DNA from: a virus
Length of the DNA: 26,906 nt
Virus record (IMG/VR): IMGVR_UViG_3300027901_000028
Location: 1-26,906 of that record
Strand: one strand, 5' to 3'
Position 1 is the first letter of the stretch, and each line of letters begins with the position of its first letter. Shown in pieces: positions 375 through 26,863 of this stretch. Made by a program: the position numbers and the translations under genes. The notes under the pieces are model-generated. The model did not search any database and was not told where the DNA came from. It was given only the letters and a program-made list of their open reading frames with translations.

Positions 375-2312
375 CTATATTTTATATTCATAATAGACTT
401 CAAATACTTCTCCTATTATTAAATCAGTATGATTAAATGTTAAAGTTGTACCACTAATAGTAAAATCTTTTGGAGATGTACCATAATATTGTTTTATTCC
501 ATTTCTATATAAACGACTTTCTCCGGGAATAAGTGGAATAGTTGATATAGTAAATGATGTTTCTCCTCCGCTAATAATTTGTGATGATAAATCATCATAT
601 TTAAGAACAGTAGCTCCAGGATGATCATCTACAAATTTTTTATCTACTAATTGTTCATCAGCAGAAAAAGTTGGATGAGAATAATAAGAAGCAATTCCTC
701 GAAAATTTAATGTGTTAGTTGAAAAATCACCACCAATTAATGGAGTAGTAGTATTAGAATTATCAATAAATAATTTATTACTATCTGTAGATTGTGATCC
801 AGCTTGATGACCTATATGTATATTGCCAGTTTCTGTAGTTAAAGCTATCCCTGTTTGATATCCACATAAAGTATTATTTCCACCACTTGTTAAAACTTTA
901 GCACTTTCATAACCTATTATTGTATTATTATTACTTGTTGCTACTGTTCCGGCTTCTTTACCAATATAAATATTACCAGTTCCAGTAATAGTATTTCTTG
1001 CAGCATAATACCCAATAGCTATTAAATGATCAGCATTATTTATTCTACCTGCATCTCTACCAATTGCAATTACTCCCGAAGCCGTTGTTGTTTGTACTGC
1101 AGCTGTTGCACCTACAAATACATTATAACCACCACTTGTAATAGCTGCACCAGCTTGGTTTCCAATTGCAGTATTATTAGAAGCATTTGTAATAGCAGTT
1201 AAAGTTTTATATCCTAACCCTAAATTATATTGAGCAGTGGTTCCAGTTTTACCACTTTCAAAACCTACATAACAATTAAAAGAACCAGTTGTAGTATTAG
1301 CTCCAGCATTATAACCAGCAAATAAATTATCTTGTCCTGTAGTTAAAGAACCATCAGAACCTTCACCAATACAAGTATTATGGGTTCCTTTAGTAGATAA
1401 AACATCAACTTTATTAATTTGATATGCAGTATTAGTATTTACTCTATCATTTATATCTTTATGAGGATTTAATCTATAATCACTACCACTAATAAGTTCT
1501 CTATCCCATAAATTTTCTTGACTATCAGTTAATATTTGTTCCCAAATAGCAGCTCCTGTAGAAGCATCTGCACAAAAATAACCAAAATCAGTATTAGTAT
1601 CTAACCATAAATCACCAGGTCTATAACCTTGTGTATTATCATCGTTTACAGTTGGAGGAATAATTGCATTAGTTGTTCCTCTTTGAAATCCAGTTTTACC
1701 AAGACCATGACCAGCAACATCAAAAGCTAAATTTAATAAAGTATTATGAGGTAATGTTCCAGGAGTTGAAGTAGGTGCTAATTCATGTTCTAAAATCATA
1801 GCTCTAACTTTAGTATATGCTCCCAATTCATTAATTGGATTTTCTATTATACTTATAAGTTTTAATTGAGCTGTAAGAGAAGTTGCAGTAGAAGTATCTA
1901 ATTGAGTACCAGATAATCCAGTAATTTTATTACCACCATTTACTAAAATGTTAAAATTCTTACCAACATCAGCTTCAATTAAAATTCCACTAGCTTGAAT
2001 CTCAAATTCAACTGATGGAGCATGATTTACATATACTATTCGTTCTGTATTAGCTTCTCTATATGTAATGTTTTCATAATCATGACTTCTATCAAAATCA
2101 ATAACTATTCCTCTTAATACATCACCAGCAGCAGCTTTAACAACTACTGGAATGCCATTAATAGAGGTTCCATTTGTTTTTACAAAATCATTTATAAATA
2201 AATCTACAGAATCTGTACTCGGTATAATATATCTTGCTCTATTAGGATTAAATTCTGCATTTTGAATAGCTCCTATTATTTTAGCCCCTATAGGATTATT
2301 TATATTTGTCAT
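375..2312 (-). CDS. Putative head fiber: decoration-like N-terminus fused to adhesin-type repeat shaft
   Basis: This 645-residue protein starts at an ATG behind AGGAAAA. Residues 1-180 align along their length with the decoration-like protein encoded beside the capsid gene (15392-15961). Shared features are PxGAK near the start, DSxxLF.DFVK, PVVxxAA, YRxA...R.VYV, F.IQ..G....DVG.N, TGLS and a closing EHE. Residues about 229-260 carry a GDLWLDT...AAIWEQ motif seen in many phage fibers. Residues about 308-512 are repeats of the form N-x-x-IG-x-x-AG, resembling YadA-type adhesin head repeats. The last 80 residues (LYRNGIKQYYGT...) resemble fiber C-terminal beta modules. The inferred role is a fiber attached to the capsid surface by its N-terminal domain and binding the host or environment distally. 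A tail location is the alternative. Confidence 0.75.
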   Translation of the reverse strand: MTNINNPIGAKIIGAIQNAEFNPNRARYIIPSTDSVDLFINDFVKTNGTSINGIPVVVKAAAGDVLRGIVIDFDRSHDYENITYREANTERIVYVNHAPSVEFEIQASGILIEADVGKNFNILVNGGNKITGLSGTQLDTSTATSLTAQLKLISIIENPINELGAYTKVRAMILEHELAPTSTPGTLPHNTLLNLAFDVAGHGLGKTGFQRGTTNAIIPPTVNDDNTQGYRPGDLWLDTNTDFGYFCADASTGAAIWEQILTDSQENLWDRELISGSDYRLNPHKDINDRVNTNTAYQINKVDVLSTKGTHNTCIGEGSDGSLTTGQDNLFAGYNAGANTTTGSFNCYVGFESGKTGTTAQYNLGLGYKTLTAITNASNNTAIGNQAGAAITSGGYNVFVGATAAVQTTTASGVIAIGRDAGRINNADHLIAIGYYAARNTITGTGNIYIGKEAGTVATSNNNTIIGYESAKVLTSGGNNTLCGYQTGIALTTETGNIHIGHQAGSQSTDSNKLFIDNSNTTTPLIGGDFSTNTLNFRGIASYYSHPTFSADEQLVDKKFVDDHPGATVLKYDDLSSQIISGGETSFTISTIPLIPGESRLYRNGIKQYYGTSPKDFTISGTTLTFNHTDLIIGEVFEVYYEYKI

Positions 2313-2333: not shown

Positions 2334-4055
2334 TTAATTTACATTAAGATTTTCAATCCAACCTTTTAATCCAATGTAATAATCAATTACTGTTCCAGTA
2401 GGAACATAAACATAAGATTTTATTTGTTGTGAATCATCAGATTTAACTAATGTTTCACCAGCTCCTTGAGAAGGCAATGAACTTATAAGTGGAGCATTAT
2501 TATTTGCTGTAATATCTGGATTCATAACTGATATAATACTAGCTGCTGTTTGAGGTCCAGATACAAAAATCATTTCACCAGAAATTCGTGCTAAAACTTC
2601 TATATCACTTGGTAATTCAGCAATTGTATCTGTATAAGTATGTGTTCCAGAACCTATACTTGTATGTGTAACAGGCCGTTTAAATGGATTATATGAAAAT
2701 TCTCTAAAGTCACCAAAATCAGTTGCTATAAATGCATCTATTTTTAAATCAGCTTTTACATAAATACTGCCAACTCTTCTATAAACAGAATAATCAGAAG
2801 CATCAGTTAATAAATTACTTGCATCTAATTCTTCATCAAAACCAGCATCTACAGTTCCATTTGCTTTAGCAATAATAAATAAATGATATATTTGATTTTG
2901 TCTAGTTAAACCAGATGGAAAGCCCCCTTGATTATCTCCTTCGACCCAATTAGCATCTATTCTTTTTGTAATAGATGAAGAAAGAACCATATTTAATGTA
3001 TCAGCATAATCTCTAGCTTCGCCAACATTAAATTTAATATCGTAATCTAAATCTCCACTATCTGATTCCACTATAATTCCATTAATATATCCTCTAGGAA
3101 GTCCTCCAGCCGCTGCACCTTCATATTCATTTTCAACGTACCAATTTAATCCATCTGTAATTAATGTCACAGCTTCATATTGAATTAATAATTTAAAATC
3201 TGAATCTCCATCAATGGTTTCAGCACCAGCAGTATCGATAATAATAGGATTAGTACTACTATCAACTTTTTTAATTTTAATTCGCCAACCACGACCACAT
3301 GCTGATAATACTGGTAAAGTTAAAGTTATTGATCCTCCCGAAGCATTTGCTAAAACTAATTTTATATTATCATCAAGAATTAAAGAACGAGTAGAACTTT
3401 CAATAATCGCAGTTCCACGAATTTGAGAAGCTATAATGTGCCAATTAGAGCCATCAGATTGTAATCTAATCGTATCATTATAATCATATAAAATATAAGT
3501 TGATCTTCCATCAATAGTTTCACTACCCGCTGGATCGATAGTTACTGTATTAGTAGAAGTATCAACTTTTTTAATATTTATTCTAAATTTATTTCCTGCA
3601 CTAACTGCAGTAGGTAAATTAATAGTAAATGAACTTGAAGTAGCATCTGCTAAAATTGTTTTATTTCTATCATCAATAGCCACTGTATAAGTAGTATTTT
3701 TAGATAAAGCTGTAGTAATTGTAGAATTTAAATCAGCAATAGTAGCTAATAAACCAGTCCAATCTCTTTGATCATATTCATTAATATTATCAATTGTTCC
3801 ACCTGGAACAATATTATCATTTGAATCTGTAATAACTAATTTATAAGATCCTCTAATCCAAATACCATTTTGGCCAATAGAAACACGACCTTCATTATCT
3901 AAAATAATTGGATTAGGTGCTGGTGAACTTTCTGCTTGATCTATCCATGTATCTTTTTTAGTAGTGGTACCAGCTATATACCAATTTAATTTTCCACCAG
4001 CTAACGGATTACCATTTTCATCAAAAAATTGTACAATTTGAAATAATGTTGCCAT
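2334..4055 (-). CDS. Tail fiber/spike-type protein with P22-like head-binding N-terminus
   Basis: This is a 573-residue protein. Residues 1-95 (PLAGGKLNWYIAGTTT, then a PNPIILDNEGR segment and a TIDNI end) match the N-terminal adaptor common in podoviral tail spikes and fibers, which attaches the fiber to the tail machine. Residues about 122-208 and 222-308 are a tandem pair of beta-rich modules sharing INIKKVD/IKIKKVD, TIDPAG/IIDTAG and SETIDG/AETIDG at a 100-residue period. The C-terminal half is beta-rich with no catalytic motif I can identify. The start ATG overlaps the preceding stop (TAATG) behind GGAGG, so translation is probably coupled. Receptor binding is inferred; an enzymatic spike is possible but not shown. 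Confidence 0.78.
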   Translation of the reverse strand: MATLFQIVQFFDENGNPLAGGKLNWYIAGTTTKKDTWIDQAESSPAPNPIILDNEGRVSIGQNGIWIRGSYKLVITDSNDNIVPGGTIDNINEYDQRDWTGLLATIADLNSTITTALSKNTTYTVAIDDRNKTILADATSSSFTINLPTAVSAGNKFRINIKKVDTSTNTVTIDPAGSETIDGRSTYILYDYNDTIRLQSDGSNWHIIASQIRGTAIIESSTRSLILDDNIKLVLANASGGSITLTLPVLSACGRGWRIKIKKVDSSTNPIIIDTAGAETIDGDSDFKLLIQYEAVTLITDGLNWYVENEYEGAAAGGLPRGYINGIIVESDSGDLDYDIKFNVGEARDYADTLNMVLSSSITKRIDANWVEGDNQGGFPSGLTRQNQIYHLFIIAKANGTVDAGFDEELDASNLLTDASDYSVYRRVGSIYVKADLKIDAFIATDFGDFREFSYNPFKRPVTHTSIGSGTHTYTDTIAELPSDIEVLARISGEMIFVSGPQTAASIISVMNPDITANNNAPLISSLPSQGAGETLVKSDDSQQIKSYVYVPTGTVIDYYIGLKGWIENLNVN

Positions 4056-6557: not shown

Positions 6558-8141
6558 TTATTTGGTCTCCGAAGATCCAGGTCTAATAAAACCTTTTGGT
6601 TCAACAACTGGACGTTCATATTGTGCTCTTAAAGCAACAGGACTTAAATATTGTTGCCAATTACCTATATTTTGTTGATTTACTGAACCATCATCATTAA
6701 TAACAGGATTTTCTTCCATAAATTTACTCCAAATTGCTTGAACTTCTCCTACATTACGAATTCCAACATTTGTAGCAGCAGTTAAAAACTTTTGATATTC
6801 TATACTTCGTTGAGCTACAGCTTTTAATTCTGCGCTTAATTGTCTAATTGCATTCGGATTCATATGAACATTGAGTGTTGAACTACTTACAATTGCCATT
6901 TCTTTATTAGTTACTCTACCAAATTTTTGCAGAGCTAATTGTCCTAAAGCTAATCTACTTTGAGCTTTTAATGCTAATTGTCCTTCAGAACTAAAACGAG
7001 CTAAATATCCCATTGCAGGACCAGTACCTGTTGGAATATCTGGAGTAGCTCTATCAAAAAGATCAATATCTCCAAGTATTCCACTAGCACGTTGAGCTTG
7101 GTCTACAGCTGTTACTTGTTCTTTAGAATATGCTTGCCCCGCTGCTGTTTCATAAGCTTTTTCAGTATCAGCAGTAGGAGAAATGGTTATTCCTCCTGTA
7201 TATTTTGGATAATATGGTTGTATTGGTTGTGGTGCTGGTTCGCCAACTGCTGGTTGTGGTGGAGTTACTGGAGCAGTTGGAGTTACTGGAGCAGTTGGAG
7301 TTACTGGAGCAGCTGGAGTTACTGGAGCAGCTGGAGATGGGATGGCTCCTGGAACAGGAGGTAATGCTGCTTGAGCTGGTGCAGCCCCTGGCGCTGCTCC
7401 CATTGGAGGAACAGGAGGTAATGCTGCTTGAGCTGGTGCAACTCCTGGCGCTGCAGCTGGTAATGCTCCAGGGGCAGCTCCAGGAGCTGCAGTTGGAACT
7501 TGACCTGAAGGTTCCATAGGAGTAATAATTTGTCCACCAACTACTCTAGCCCCAGGTGGTAAAGTAGTACCAGCTGTGGGGCTAGTTTTAGCCATAGCAG
7601 CTCTTACTTGAGCTAATCCTCTAAATTTTTCTAATTGTAATTGTTGTAAAAATTTTCTTTCATTTTCTGCTCGTGGAGTCTGTTGTATAGCATTTTGCCC
7701 CATTGCTATTACATCTTTACCATATTTAGCAGGTAATTCATCAGGTCTAGCACCTAAATTACTCATTTCATTTCTAATTCTTTGATATTCTGCTGAACGT
7801 AATTCAGGAGGTAATTGCATCATATCTGCTAATCTAGTATTTAAATAAACATGTTTAGATTGTTGTTCACTTAATTGAGCAGTTGCTAATTGATGAGCAA
7901 GAATTTGTCTATTTTGTTGTGCTTGAGCTTGTTGAGCTTGAAATGCTTGTGGAGCTTCACGTAATTGTTCTTGGGCTGCTTGTAGTTGTAAAGCTCCCAT
8001 TGCAGTAGCTTGTTGAGCTTGTTGACGTTGTTGTTGTAGAGCTTGTAATGTTTGATATGTACTTAATGCACTTTGAGCACCAGCTGCTAATGGACTAACA
8101 AGAGGTGTTCTTGCATATGCTAAAAAATCTGGAACTGCCAT
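6558..8141 (-). CDS. Ejection-type virion protein with Gln/Ala-rich N-terminus and Pro/Ala repeat linker
   Basis: This is a 527-residue protein with an ATG behind AGGA. Residues 1-130 are rich in Gln, Ala and Leu (QQQRQQAQQATAMGALQLQA and similar), predicting a long amphipathic helix. A middle region of about 100 residues is a Pro/Ala/Val/Thr low-complexity linker built from repeated units (features at 7261 and 7351). The C-terminal third is a helical folded domain (DRATPDIPTGTGPAMGYLARF...). By position between a gp7-like and a gp16-like protein it corresponds to P22 gp20, a DNA-ejection protein. No motif proves this; composition and gene order are the evidence. Confidence 0.6.
   Translation of the reverse strand: MAVPDFLAYARTPLVSPLAAGAQSALSTYQTLQALQQQRQQAQQATAMGALQLQAAQEQLREAPQAFQAQQAQAQQNRQILAHQLATAQLSEQQSKHVYLNTRLADMMQLPPELRSAEYQRIRNEMSNLGARPDELPAKYGKDVIAMGQNAIQQTPRAENERKFLQQLQLEKFRGLAQVRAAMAKTSPTAGTTLPPGARVVGGQIITPMEPSGQVPTAAPGAAPGALPAAAPGVAPAQAALPPVPPMGAAPGAAPAQAALPPVPGAIPSPAAPVTPAAPVTPTAPVTPTAPVTPPQPAVGEPAPQPIQPYYPKYTGGITISPTADTEKAYETAAGQAYSKEQVTAVDQAQRASGILGDIDLFDRATPDIPTGTGPAMGYLARFSSEGQLALKAQSRLALGQLALQKFGRVTNKEMAIVSSSTLNVHMNPNAIRQLSAELKAVAQRSIEYQKFLTAATNVGIRNVGEVQAIWSKFMEENPVINDDGSVNQQNIGNWQQYLSPVALRAQYERPVVEPKGFIRPGSSETK
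7261..7332 (-). repeat. Four tandem 18-bp units in a Pro-rich linker
   Basis: Four consecutive copies of GGAGTTACTGGAGCAG(T/C)T occur on the plus strand. In the minus-strand gene they encode PAPVT(A/T)-type hexapeptide repeats. The repeat keeps the reading frame, so copy number can change without breaking the protein. Confidence 0.85.
7351..7440 (-). repeat. Direct 33-bp repeat at a 57-bp period
   Basis: A 33-base block at 7351-7383 recurs exactly at 7408-7440. In the protein it encodes the repeated APAQAALPPVP segment of the same Pro/Ala linker. Confidence 0.8.
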
Positions 8142-13505: not shown

Positions 13506-14414
13506 TTAAGTTTCAACAACTGGATTAAGTCGTGCGTTCTTATCAACAGAACTTACAGAATAACATTCAAAGCATTTCAATGAACCAGGATCAAAAGCAG
13601 TTGCAAAAGCATCAGCATATAAGAAATTACGCGCAGCAATTCCAGTACATGCAGAAACTAATTCAATAGCATGATCACCAGTTTGAAGATTGCTTAATAT
13701 ACAATCCTTAATTGTTAAATTAGTTAAAACTTTACCAGTTGGATTGTGAATAGCAGCATCAGCAAAATCACCAAATGCTTCACAATTACTAATAATTATA
13801 CTATCAGCAACTTCACCTAATTCAATTGCTGCATTTGCTCCAGCAGTTGGGGCATTAAAAGTACAATGATCAACTTTAATGCCATCGCACGCATTTGCTC
13901 CCCCACCATTTATATCAATAAAAGTTAAGCCCTGAGCTGTACCTTCAGTAAAATAACAATTATCGATAATAGTTCGCTTAGCATTACAATCTAACATTGT
14001 GACTTGACTAGCAATATTACAAGTAAACATCATATTACTAATACGAACATCATTAGCGGAAATTACTACAGAGGCTGCAGTATCGGTGGCGAATGTTATA
14101 TGTGGACGATTTACTTCATTTCCTTGTCCTATAATGGAAATTCCTGCAATATCAGCAACCATCCCAGTAGCAGCTATAATAGTTTCAGCATGTCCTGGTG
14201 CTACAAAGATAATATCTCCTTGATTTGCTGTGCATCTGCCAATTGCATAATCAATTGTTGCAAAAGGATATTTTTCAGTTCCACTATTTCCATTAGAACC
14301 ATGAATAGAATCAACCCAATATACATTAGCTCTAGGATTTCTAGTATAAATAATAGGCATACCTTGAATAGCTACGCCATGTGCAAATCCATGAGGATAA
14401 CTCGTAATAGGCAT
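13506..14414 (-). CDS. Parallel beta-helix protein of the capsid block
   Basis: This is a 302-residue protein starting MPITSYPHGF. I chose the ATG at 14414 because TTGGAG lies eight bases upstream; the longer frame reaching 14465 has no ribosome site and overlaps the capsid stop. Residues about 30-60 (VYWVDSIHGSNGNSGTEKYP then FATIDYAIG) resemble the entry of pectate-lyase/NosD-like right-handed beta-helices. The following rungs show repeated hydrophobic-N/D-x-x patterns (ISNMMF, IDNCYF, VDHCTF, ISNCEA, IKDCIL). No catalytic residues are identifiable. Its place next to the capsid gene suggests a virion surface role, possibly an additional decoration. Confidence 0.65.
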   Translation of the reverse strand: MPITSYPHGFAHGVAIQGMPIIYTRNPRANVYWVDSIHGSNGNSGTEKYPFATIDYAIGRCTANQGDIIFVAPGHAETIIAATGMVADIAGISIIGQGNEVNRPHITFATDTAASVVISANDVRISNMMFTCNIASQVTMLDCNAKRTIIDNCYFTEGTAQGLTFIDINGGGANACDGIKVDHCTFNAPTAGANAAIELGEVADSIIISNCEAFGDFADAAIHNPTGKVLTNLTIKDCILSNLQTGDHAIELVSACTGIAARNFLYADAFATAFDPGSLKCFECYSVSSVDKNARLNPVVET

Positions 14415-14464
14415 TTTTAATTCTCCAAATAAATAATAAACAAGAGCCCAAGGACTTAATAACA

Positions 14465-15376
14465 TTAAGCTCCTGGACTACCATAAATTCCACGCCAGTC
14501 AGTAAATCCAAAACTATATCTTTCATAACCAGAAAATAATGCATTCTTGGTTGTAAAATCATTATCAGATTCAAAAACTGGAGCTGATCTTTCAAAATAT
14601 TTTAAAGAACTTGGACAATCAGTAAGCACAAACCATGCATCAGTATCTGTTAAATAATTATTAACAGTATAACCTTGTGGTAATACACCCAAAGTGTACA
14701 TAGCATTGATATCACGATCAGCAGTAGCTGGACGTTGTGGATTCTTTAAAATACGAGCGGCATCAAATCTCAAAGATGGTGGAACTAATAATTTTAATGC
14801 TTTAACTTCGATATGATTATTTCGATTATCTCTAAATTGATCAATATCTATTATAGCTTGTTCTAAAGCTGCTTCTGATAAATCAGCAGCAACTGTTAAA
14901 GTATTAGATAAAGTACCACCTTCAGTAGGATGTAAAGCGTTTACTAAACTAACACCATCACCACCAGCATAAGAATTATTAAAAGCTCTATTGAAAATAT
15001 TTGCAGCAACATTTTCTTTAGTTTGATGCATTGAATAAGCAACATTTTTTGCACGTTGGGCTCCAAATTGCTTATATAAATTATCTGCAATTTCCTCACG
15101 GGTAATTACAAAACCAATAGAATAAGCAACATTGGTATAACGCGTAATAAATGATTGTTTCATTGTATCATATGAAAGAGCTTCTCCTTCGACTTTAACT
15201 GGGGCTAAACCCATTCCAGTTAAGCCAACATCTTCTTCATAATTCTTATCTGAATAATTAATTTCAAAAAGTTCCCGCCATTGAGGGATTTTTTCTTTAT
15301 AAGCTAACCCCCAAATTTCATCTAATCCTGGCCACAATAGCTTCGGAGTAGAACCAGTAGAAATTATTCCTGACAT
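14465..15376 (-). CDS. Major capsid protein
   Basis: This is a 303-residue protein with a very strong ribosome site (GGAGG, seven bases before ATG). Segments typical of this HK97-fold head-protein family are LLWPGLDEIWG near the start, YTNVAYSIGFVITREEIADN, NIFNRAFNN, LLVPPSLRFDAARIL and a C-terminal FSGYERYSFGFTDWRGIYGS. It follows the decoration-like gene by 15 bases. It should form the icosahedral shell with the scaffold-like protein at 16863-17816. Confidence 0.85.
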   Translation of the reverse strand: MSGIISTGSTPKLLWPGLDEIWGLAYKEKIPQWRELFEINYSDKNYEEDVGLTGMGLAPVKVEGEALSYDTMKQSFITRYTNVAYSIGFVITREEIADNLYKQFGAQRAKNVAYSMHQTKENVAANIFNRAFNNSYAGGDGVSLVNALHPTEGGTLSNTLTVAADLSEAALEQAIIDIDQFRDNRNNHIEVKALKLLVPPSLRFDAARILKNPQRPATADRDINAMYTLGVLPQGYTVNNYLTDTDAWFVLTDCPSSLKYFERSAPVFESDNDFTTKNALFSGYERYSFGFTDWRGIYGSPGA

Positions 15377-15391
15377 TTTTATATCCTCCTA

Positions 15392-15961
15392 TTAAACACC
15401 AGTAGTGGCTTTATATTCATGTTCATTGATAAAACAAATCCAATCAACATAATCACCAACTGTATTATCTGCACGACGTACTATATCTGTAATACGTAAT
15501 TGAGCACTGTCTGAAGTTAAAGTTGTTTGATCAATTTCCATTGCAGATAAACCAGTAACAGTACTACCAGTTCCAACTACAATATCAGCATTTTGTCCAA
15601 CATCTCCTACAGCACCAGTACCATTTGTTTGAATCGAAAATCTAACATATGGATCATCCATTACATAAACAGTACGTAATGTACTTGCAGTTCTATAAAT
15701 TTGATTTAAATAAGTAGAATTTGGTTTAAATCCAACTACAAAACCAACTAATGCATTAGTTGCAGCAGCTTGAGTCACAACAGGATGATATTCACCATCA
15801 TCACCTAATCCTAATGTACCTGTCAGCTTTACAAAATCACCCATAAAGAGTGCAGTACTATCAGCTGCTAAAACGGTATAAGCATGAATTTGTCCATTAG
15901 CCATTGCTTGACTAAAACTACCAACTAATTTTGCACCAGATGGAGTATCAGCATTTGCCAT
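15392..15961 (-). CDS. Head decoration-like protein
   Basis: This is a 189-residue protein starting MANADTPSGAKLVG. The ATG at 15961 has GGAG seven bases upstream; the ATG six bases earlier is too close to that site. It is beta-rich (FVVGFKP, VRFSIQTNGTGAVGDVGQN, ITDIVRRADNTVGDYVD) and sits directly before the major capsid gene, as head-stabilising decoration proteins often do. Its whole length is homologous to residues 1-180 of the head-fiber gene at 375-2312 and to the partial gene at 1-363, which supports a capsid-binding role for the fold. A different minor head role is possible. Confidence 0.65.
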   Translation of the reverse strand: MANADTPSGAKLVGSFSQAMANGQIHAYTVLAADSTALFMGDFVKLTGTLGLGDDGEYHPVVTQAAATNALVGFVVGFKPNSTYLNQIYRTASTLRTVYVMDDPYVRFSIQTNGTGAVGDVGQNADIVVGTGSTVTGLSAMEIDQTTLTSDSAQLRITDIVRRADNTVGDYVDWICFINEHEYKATTGV

Positions 15962-16078
15962 AATCATTCTCCAAATAATTAATAAAAATTATATTTAAAA
16001 TAAAAATATTAAAATTATCCTAAATAGGAATTTTCTTAAGGCTCTATTTGAATAAATAGATGGAATAAGTATTTGAAA

Positions 16079-16590: not shown

Positions 16591-16880
16591 ATTTAACTCC
16601 AATAATTAATTTTCTAATCTTATAGCACTACATTTATCAATAATTTCTTTTTCACAAATCCTCCTTCAATTTTTTCTTCATCAAGGGTAACTAATTCAAT
16701 TAAAACTCTTTCACCACATGAAATTCTTTGTTTTTTATTAGGTAATTTATATTGTTTTCTAAGTGTTTTAGCTTTTTTTTGCGCATCTCGCAAATGAACT
16801 GGAATGTCTTCTTTTAAAAATTCATCTTTATTAATAGTTTCAGTCATATTTAACTCCAATAATTAACTTTCTAATCTTAT
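16469..16880 (-). repeat. Imperfect direct repeat spanning scaffold 3' end and the next gene's start
   Basis: Bases 16469-16623 match 16726-16880 at a constant offset of 257, with scattered substitutions. The repeat covers the last codons of the preceding gene, the shared leader (ATTGGAGTTAAAT) and about 40 codons of the following gene. It is the footprint of a tandem duplication. Confidence 0.85.
16620..16847 (-). pseudogene. Chimeric remnant: unknown-protein N-terminus + GroES piece + scaffold tail
   Basis: This is a 75-codon frame from an ATG at 16847 with the same GGAG leader as gene 16099-16590. Codons 1-45 copy the N-terminus of that gene. The next part (ISCGERVLIELVTLDEEKIE then GGF) copies the GroES gene: bases 16682-16718 match 18066-18102 at all but one of 37 positions. 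The last part derives from the scaffold 3' end: 16632-16651 is identical to 16949-16968, read in another frame. It cannot make a working GroES because everything after the Gly-Gly of the mobile loop is missing. It has a good ribosome site, so a short fusion peptide may still be translated. Confidence 0.8.
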
Positions 16881-26314: not shown

Positions 26315-26854
26315 ATGGAATTTATTTTTCCAACTTATTATACAATTTTACCAGCTTATATTCGATATAATAAATTACCTTCTAATTTTGAAAAAATATT
26401 ATTCTCAGAAATTATATTTTTATCTAAAAATCATAAATGCTATGCAAAAAATAATTATTTTGCGTCTCTTTATAATGTAAAAGAACAAACAGTTAGAAGA
26501 GCAATTGCTAATTTAGAAAAATTTAATCTTTTAAAAAGAATCAAATATAAACAAAGCCGTTATTTATTAATAAATATAAACAAAATGGAATTTATTTTTC
26601 CAACTTACTATACAATTTTGCCAGCTTATATTCGATATAATAAATTATTTTCTAATTTTGAAAAAATATTATTCTCAGAAATTATATTTTTATCTAAAAA
26701 TCATAAATGTCATGCAAAAAATAATTATTTTGCATCTCTTTATAATGTAAAAGAACAAACAGTTAGAAGAGTACTTGCTAATTTAGAAAAATTTAATCTT
26801 TTAAAAAGAATCAAATATAAACAAACTCGTTATTTATTAATATTACCAAATATT
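26315..26854 (+). repeat. In-frame 270-bp tandem duplication
   Basis: Bases 26315-26584 repeat at 26585-26854 at an offset of exactly 270. I count about 11 substitutions over the first ~255 bases of the unit; only the last 15 bases differ strongly. Confidence 0.9.
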
Positions 26855-26863
26855 TCTTCTTGA
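26315..26863 (+). CDS. Replication-initiator-type HTH protein made of two copies of one domain
   Basis: This is a 182-residue protein made of two copies of a 90-residue winged-helix domain. Each copy has YYTILPAYIRYNKL, ILFSEIIFLSKNHK, NNYFASLYNVKEQTVRR and LANLEKFNLLKRIKYK, the pattern of helix-turn-helix N-terminal domains found in phage and plasmid replication proteins. The second copy has its own in-frame ATG at 26585. Normally such a domain is followed by a larger C-terminal part, which is absent before the TGA at 26861-26863. Another frame stays open from there to the window edge, so a frameshift or a separate downstream gene is possible. The ribosome site is weak. It lies downstream of the probable origin and likely binds it. 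Confidence 0.65.
   Translation: MEFIFPTYYTILPAYIRYNKLPSNFEKILFSEIIFLSKNHKCYAKNNYFASLYNVKEQTVRRAIANLEKFNLLKRIKYKQSRYLLININKMEFIFPTYYTILPAYIRYNKLFSNFEKILFSEIIFLSKNHKCHAKNNYFASLYNVKEQTVRRVLANLEKFNLLKRIKYKQTRYLLILPNISS

Follow-up and report, generated by a model that had tools for sequence, protein, structure and literature searches.

A putative phage head fiber based on a paralogue of a capsid decoration-like protein

Described head fibers and decoration proteins

Head fibers are known from few phages. In phi29, 55 trimers of gp8.5 protrude from the head through a base that contacts the capsid (PMC6542822), and in each the stem projects from a capsid-bound base of beta-tulip fold (PMC7602432; PMC6542822). 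Lambda gpD, TW1 gp56 and the gp8.5 base share one beta-tulip fold, of which MoeA is a cellular look-alike (review, PMC7602432), and the capsid-stabilising trimer of HFTV1 is related to the gp8.5 base, TW1 and Pam3 (PMC12494034). PhiCrAss001 carries the head fibers gp21 and gp29, whose N-terminal parts are short (38-58 residues), are not of decoration type and bind hexon centres (PMC10172136).

We analysed a linear viral record in its entirety (26,906 bases; hereafter the window), which is probably a fragment. One of its genes encodes a 645-residue fiber. Like phi29 gp8.5 (PDB 6QYY, 6QVK), this fiber is predicted to have an N-terminal decoration-type base followed by a long C-terminal part. In contrast to the helical supercoil of the phi29 stem, its shaft was modelled as beta-rich strands; it has no detectable sequence similarity to gp8.5 and no Pfam or PDB sequence match, and the window genome, unlike phi29, retains a stand-alone decoration protein of the family from which the base derives. 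The fiber may work like gp8.5, but because the two have different stems and no link in sequence we do not place it in the gp8.5 family. The predicted fold of its anchor and of the stand-alone protein is that of lambda gpD, P21 SHP, TW1 gp56 and HFTV1 CSP, which, unlike the fiber, have no shaft. Both window domains match phrog_37556, whereas long fusions lie outside that family. With gp21 and gp29 of PhiCrAss001 the fiber would share an N-terminal capsid-binding part and a variable outer part.

The fiber gene, its anchor and the decoration-like family

The original prediction, made without database searches, held that the N-terminal domain of the fiber is homologous to the decoration-like protein. 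BLASTP confirmed this, aligning fiber residues 1-182 with residues 3-189 of the decoration protein at 40% identity and 54% positives (E 2e-36), and the motifs first listed for the pair are present in the alignment. The profile comparison proposed at that time agreed: against a profile of 46 stand-alone relatives, from which window sequences were excluded, the fiber scored 161 bits (E 1e-51, residues 1 to 181 aligned) and the decoration protein 221 bits, while none of 200 shuffles scored. Fiber residues 1-178 also matched phrog_37556 (E 3e-10). Beyond the anchor, the small 'GYRPGDLW' module is common in phage fiber and virion proteins, and the repeat shaft is a probable beta-solenoid.

Table 1. 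Features of the window discussed in the text, with the evidence for each
Feature	Position	Strand	Evidence
Third copy of anchor domain, first part of another gene truncated by the contig end	1..363	minus	identity to fiber anchor; ATG and ribosome site
Fiber gene, 645 aa, with decoration-type anchor, linker, beta-rich repeat shaft and C-terminal tip	375..2312	minus	intact ORF, anchor homology, model
Repeat shaft, residues 312-517	762..1379	minus	mid-confidence regular strands; PHROG tail-spike and virion matches; fiber matches
'GYRPGDLW' module, residues 222-265	1518..1649	minus	tblastn matches to other phage fibers and viral contigs
Anchor domain (residues 1-183), paralogous to the stand-alone decoration protein	1764..2312	minus	BLASTP, profile, model
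Tail-appendage-like gene, adjoins fiber	2334..4055	minus	PHROG baseplate match; 38-50% identity to homologues
Major capsid protein	14465..15376	minus	Pfam PF10124, E 7.7e-7; PHROG major head protein, E 7e-15
Stand-alone decoration-like protein, source family of anchor	15392..15967	minus	phrog_37556, synteny, model
GroES-like	18162-17809	minus
Portal	20641-18446	minus
Terminase	23263-21722	minus
Head-completion and tail genes	among the structural genes of the window	minus

The only other frame of the window that scored with the 46-relative profile was the third copy at the contig end. Its protein is 83% identical to the fiber anchor over 121 residues (88% in DNA), and its ATG, with a ribosome site, lies 12 bases past the fiber stop codon. 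A dN/dS of 0.42 between these two window copies suggests that the anchor is under purifying selection. The third copy probably belongs to a second fiber.

The stand-alone ORF opens at 15967; because nearly all relatives begin 'MAN', the start at 15961 given in the original prediction is preferred. Its product (P0002) matched phrog_37556, a 187-position profile with no function assigned, over the profile length (E 7e-22), and in a first alignment all ten members matched this profile, window domains included. Relatives were gathered from phage records and viral contigs. Among 198 distinct stand-alone cases with room downstream, a major-capsid-family ORF followed directly on the same strand in 194, as it does in the window; in the remaining four it lay about 0.9-1 kb further on. 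The analysis as a whole suggests a capsid-decoration function for phrog_37556. The fiber gene is not beside the capsid gene, as expected of a duplicate. Annotated examples of the family are gp58 of Pelagibacter phage HTVC027P and the proteins of Alcaligenes phage QDWS535, Caulobacter phage RW, Roseobacter phage CRP-901 and phage DSL-LC04. Scans for close relatives using the window proteins alone gave no matches, and deeper profiles were required. A scan of genomes from bacteria and archaea returned no relatives and thus no prophage context. PDB sequence searches returned no match or chance-level matches only.

The structural genes of the window lie on the minus strand. The start of the ORF at 16620-16859 (minus) repeats the start of the adjacent protein at 16602-16099, and its end resembles part of the GroES-like gene, so that it appears as a hybrid partial duplication. 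The 182-residue ORF at 26315-26863 (plus) consists of two nearly identical halves of ~90 residues in tandem, possibly a DNA-binding unit. The protein at 6558-8141 (minus) has a long repeat region rich in Pro and Ala (APGAAPAQAALPPVP). The gene at 13506-14465 (minus), which immediately follows the capsid gene, has homologues in three related viral genomes, G013, G096 and G123; the homologous frame measures ~307 residues in G013 and 776 in G096, and this length-variable protein might be a further head appendage.

The stand-alone protein was modelled from a 45-row alignment with a mean pLDDT of 92.9. Foldseek found no PDB match to this model at E 0.001 or better; its leading rows were mostly capsid decoration chains. 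With a second aligner HFTV1 ranked at the top (Z 9.2, 126 aligned, 3.6 A), followed by FCWL1, T1, Sf11, Pam3, TW1 and BB1 and then by the phi29 gp8.5 base (Z 5.9). P21 SHP and lambda gpD appeared lower in the list, as did the phi29 tail appendage gp12, which matched by its C-terminal part (Z 5.2-5.3); MoeA was also present. The Z values are weak alone, and their weight comes from the agreement between a list dominated by capsid-surface proteins and the gene position.

In the fiber model residues 1-183 were of high confidence (pLDDT mostly above 85), residues 184-311 of low confidence and residues 312-517 formed regular strands of middling confidence; the C-terminus was poorly modelled. Matches of the shaft to GlmU and OatWY (Z 9-11) were set aside, as they had an rmsd above 10 A in a low-confidence region. 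The anchor model shared its strand order and leading structural matches with the stand-alone model. Its fold ranking held the same capsid proteins, with Z up to 9.4, and the gp8.5 base (6QYY) matched anchor residues 22-175 (Z 6.5, 113 residues). Both domains are thus predicted to have the same decoration-type fold, an assignment that the moderate Z values place at fold level only, and both fold lists were led by capsid decoration or stabilising proteins, with no match to a tail-binding adaptor. Neither of the outcomes named beforehand as refuting the idea, different folds or a match to tail-binding adaptors, was seen. In a viral structure library, long proteins with a segment that weakly resembles the fold of the anchor were also seen, among them a Colwellia phage 9A tail protein (855 residues) and a collagen-repeat protein (991 residues); these may be further fusions.

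Related viruses and the history of the fusion

Whole records were searched around the loci of the relatives, and most held one stand-alone copy only. Fusion proteins were found in G013 (1559 residues), G123 (about 1,100 residues), G096 (at least 740 residues, cut by the contig end) and the more distant virus G040 (826 residues). G013, G096 and G123 are collinear with the window. Capsid protein identity to that of the window is 54% in G013, 57% in G096 and 74% in G123, and portal identity is 44%, 45% and 53%, respectively. In all four the fusion gene comes after the homologue of the tail-appendage-like gene, directly or one ORF later.

The anchors of these four viruses form one clade (bootstrap 96, SH-aLRT 87), nested in a clade that holds the stand-alone proteins of the same viruses (98/91). 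The simplest reading is that the decoration gene was duplicated and fused once, before the four lineages split. The nested anchors, together with the synteny in three relatives, support the fusion of a decoration protein to a fiber shaft that had been put forward as an evolutionary route.

Past the anchor, no similarity was detected between the fiber of the window and the G013 protein. The G096 and G013 proteins have about 157 residues in common and then diverge, and G123 has shaft repeats in common with the window and linker modules in common with G013 and G096. Shafts differ or share pieces while the anchor stays, a pattern usually left by the exchange of shafts on a retained anchor.

In G040 the fusion gene lies upstream of the large-terminase gene, and a stand-alone copy adjoins the capsid gene. 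A beta-helix spike seen by eye in the C-terminal part of this fusion was confirmed by no profile, and a guess that the ORF upstream of it encodes a small terminase had no supporting match. Trees put the G040 fusion apart from the others; a single origin of all fusions was not rejected (AU p 0.05, 0.14 and 0.14), and we favour two origins on the tree topology.

Some family-invariant positions were changed in the fusion anchors. N181 and G190 differed in all complete anchors checked; lying at the C-terminal end, where the shaft leaves the domain, these changes could reflect the fusion itself. N5 was changed in the G013 and G040 fusions, which could indicate altered docking.

Head or tail attachment

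The history of duplication and fusion is independent of whether the fiber sits on the head or the tail. Taking the evidence together, we read the protein as a head fiber on a decoration-paralogue base that arose by duplication and fusion and whose shafts were later exchanged, with a probability of roughly three in four. Anchor homology to a family encoded beside the capsid gene points to the head, as do the fold matches of both proteins, which are dominated by capsid decoration proteins and include the phi29 head-fiber base. The shared position of the fusions in three collinear viruses, a single anchor clade, shafts that vary on a kept anchor and apparent purifying selection on the anchor are consistent with this reading, and gp8.5 offers a precedent by analogy.

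The main alternative is a tail fiber, in which the copy of the decoration domain was adapted for docking on the tail, the portal-vertex collar or another appendage and not on the capsid lattice. The fusion genes of the window and of three of the four other viruses sit among tail-appendage genes, the shafts have matches among proteins with tail-fiber or spike annotations, and the loss of some invariant anchor residues could mean a changed docking site; the structural Z values supporting the head are moderate (5.9-9.2), with no significant Foldseek match. Tail docking nevertheless appears unlikely given that the anchor is homologous over its whole length to a protein encoded next to the capsid gene, that capsid-surface proteins head its fold list and that the G040 fusion lies outside the tail genes. 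It is also improbable that the anchor sits on the capsid while the long part serves mainly as a stabiliser or as a general binder of carbohydrate or mucus with no role in host choice. Several known decoration proteins that bear additional domains are dispensable or bind to host and non-host surfaces alike (PMC7602432), but the fast replacement of shafts among close relatives is typical of receptor-binding proteins. The fiber join might be suspected of being an assembly artefact caused by repeated domains, since the end of the window cuts a near-repeat of the anchor that includes an exact match of 84 bases and every fusion genome is an uncultured contig. The anchor is just 40% identical to the stand-alone protein, and the join therefore cannot come from that pair; three other viruses have identically arranged open frames at this site, making such an artefact very improbable indeed.

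In the head-fiber reading, the decoration gene would have been duplicated and a copy fused to a fiber shaft in the ancestor of this virus clade, with shafts later swapped and the anchor retained. The anchor would serve as the base of a trimeric fiber and dock on the head at three-fold or quasi-three-fold sites, taking a minority of the sites otherwise capped by the abundant stand-alone protein; this minority status, through expression or affinity, is assumed. This would fit the original suggestion that the fiber occupies or competes for decoration sites. Linker, shaft and tip would point outward, and the fiber would act as an adhesin, binding host surface structures or polymers before the tail engages.

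An origin within the genome from a retained decoration gene, a tandem second copy and swapped shafts are new features, and a limited literature search found no description of them. The presumed source gene, its copy and the exchange of shafts after fusion can be traced across related genomes. Rather more tentatively, a duplicated decoration gene might be a recurring device, a head socket for swapped fiber or spike shafts that is sometimes present several times per genome and was possibly invented more than once, as G040 hints; plain caps and adhesins would then compete for the same sites on a mosaic head. If the head-fiber reading is true, some proteins annotated as tail fibers from their shafts sit on the head, and host binding would have to be read differently from genomes. 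The virus studied here probably carries arms for host binding on the head in addition to those on the tail.
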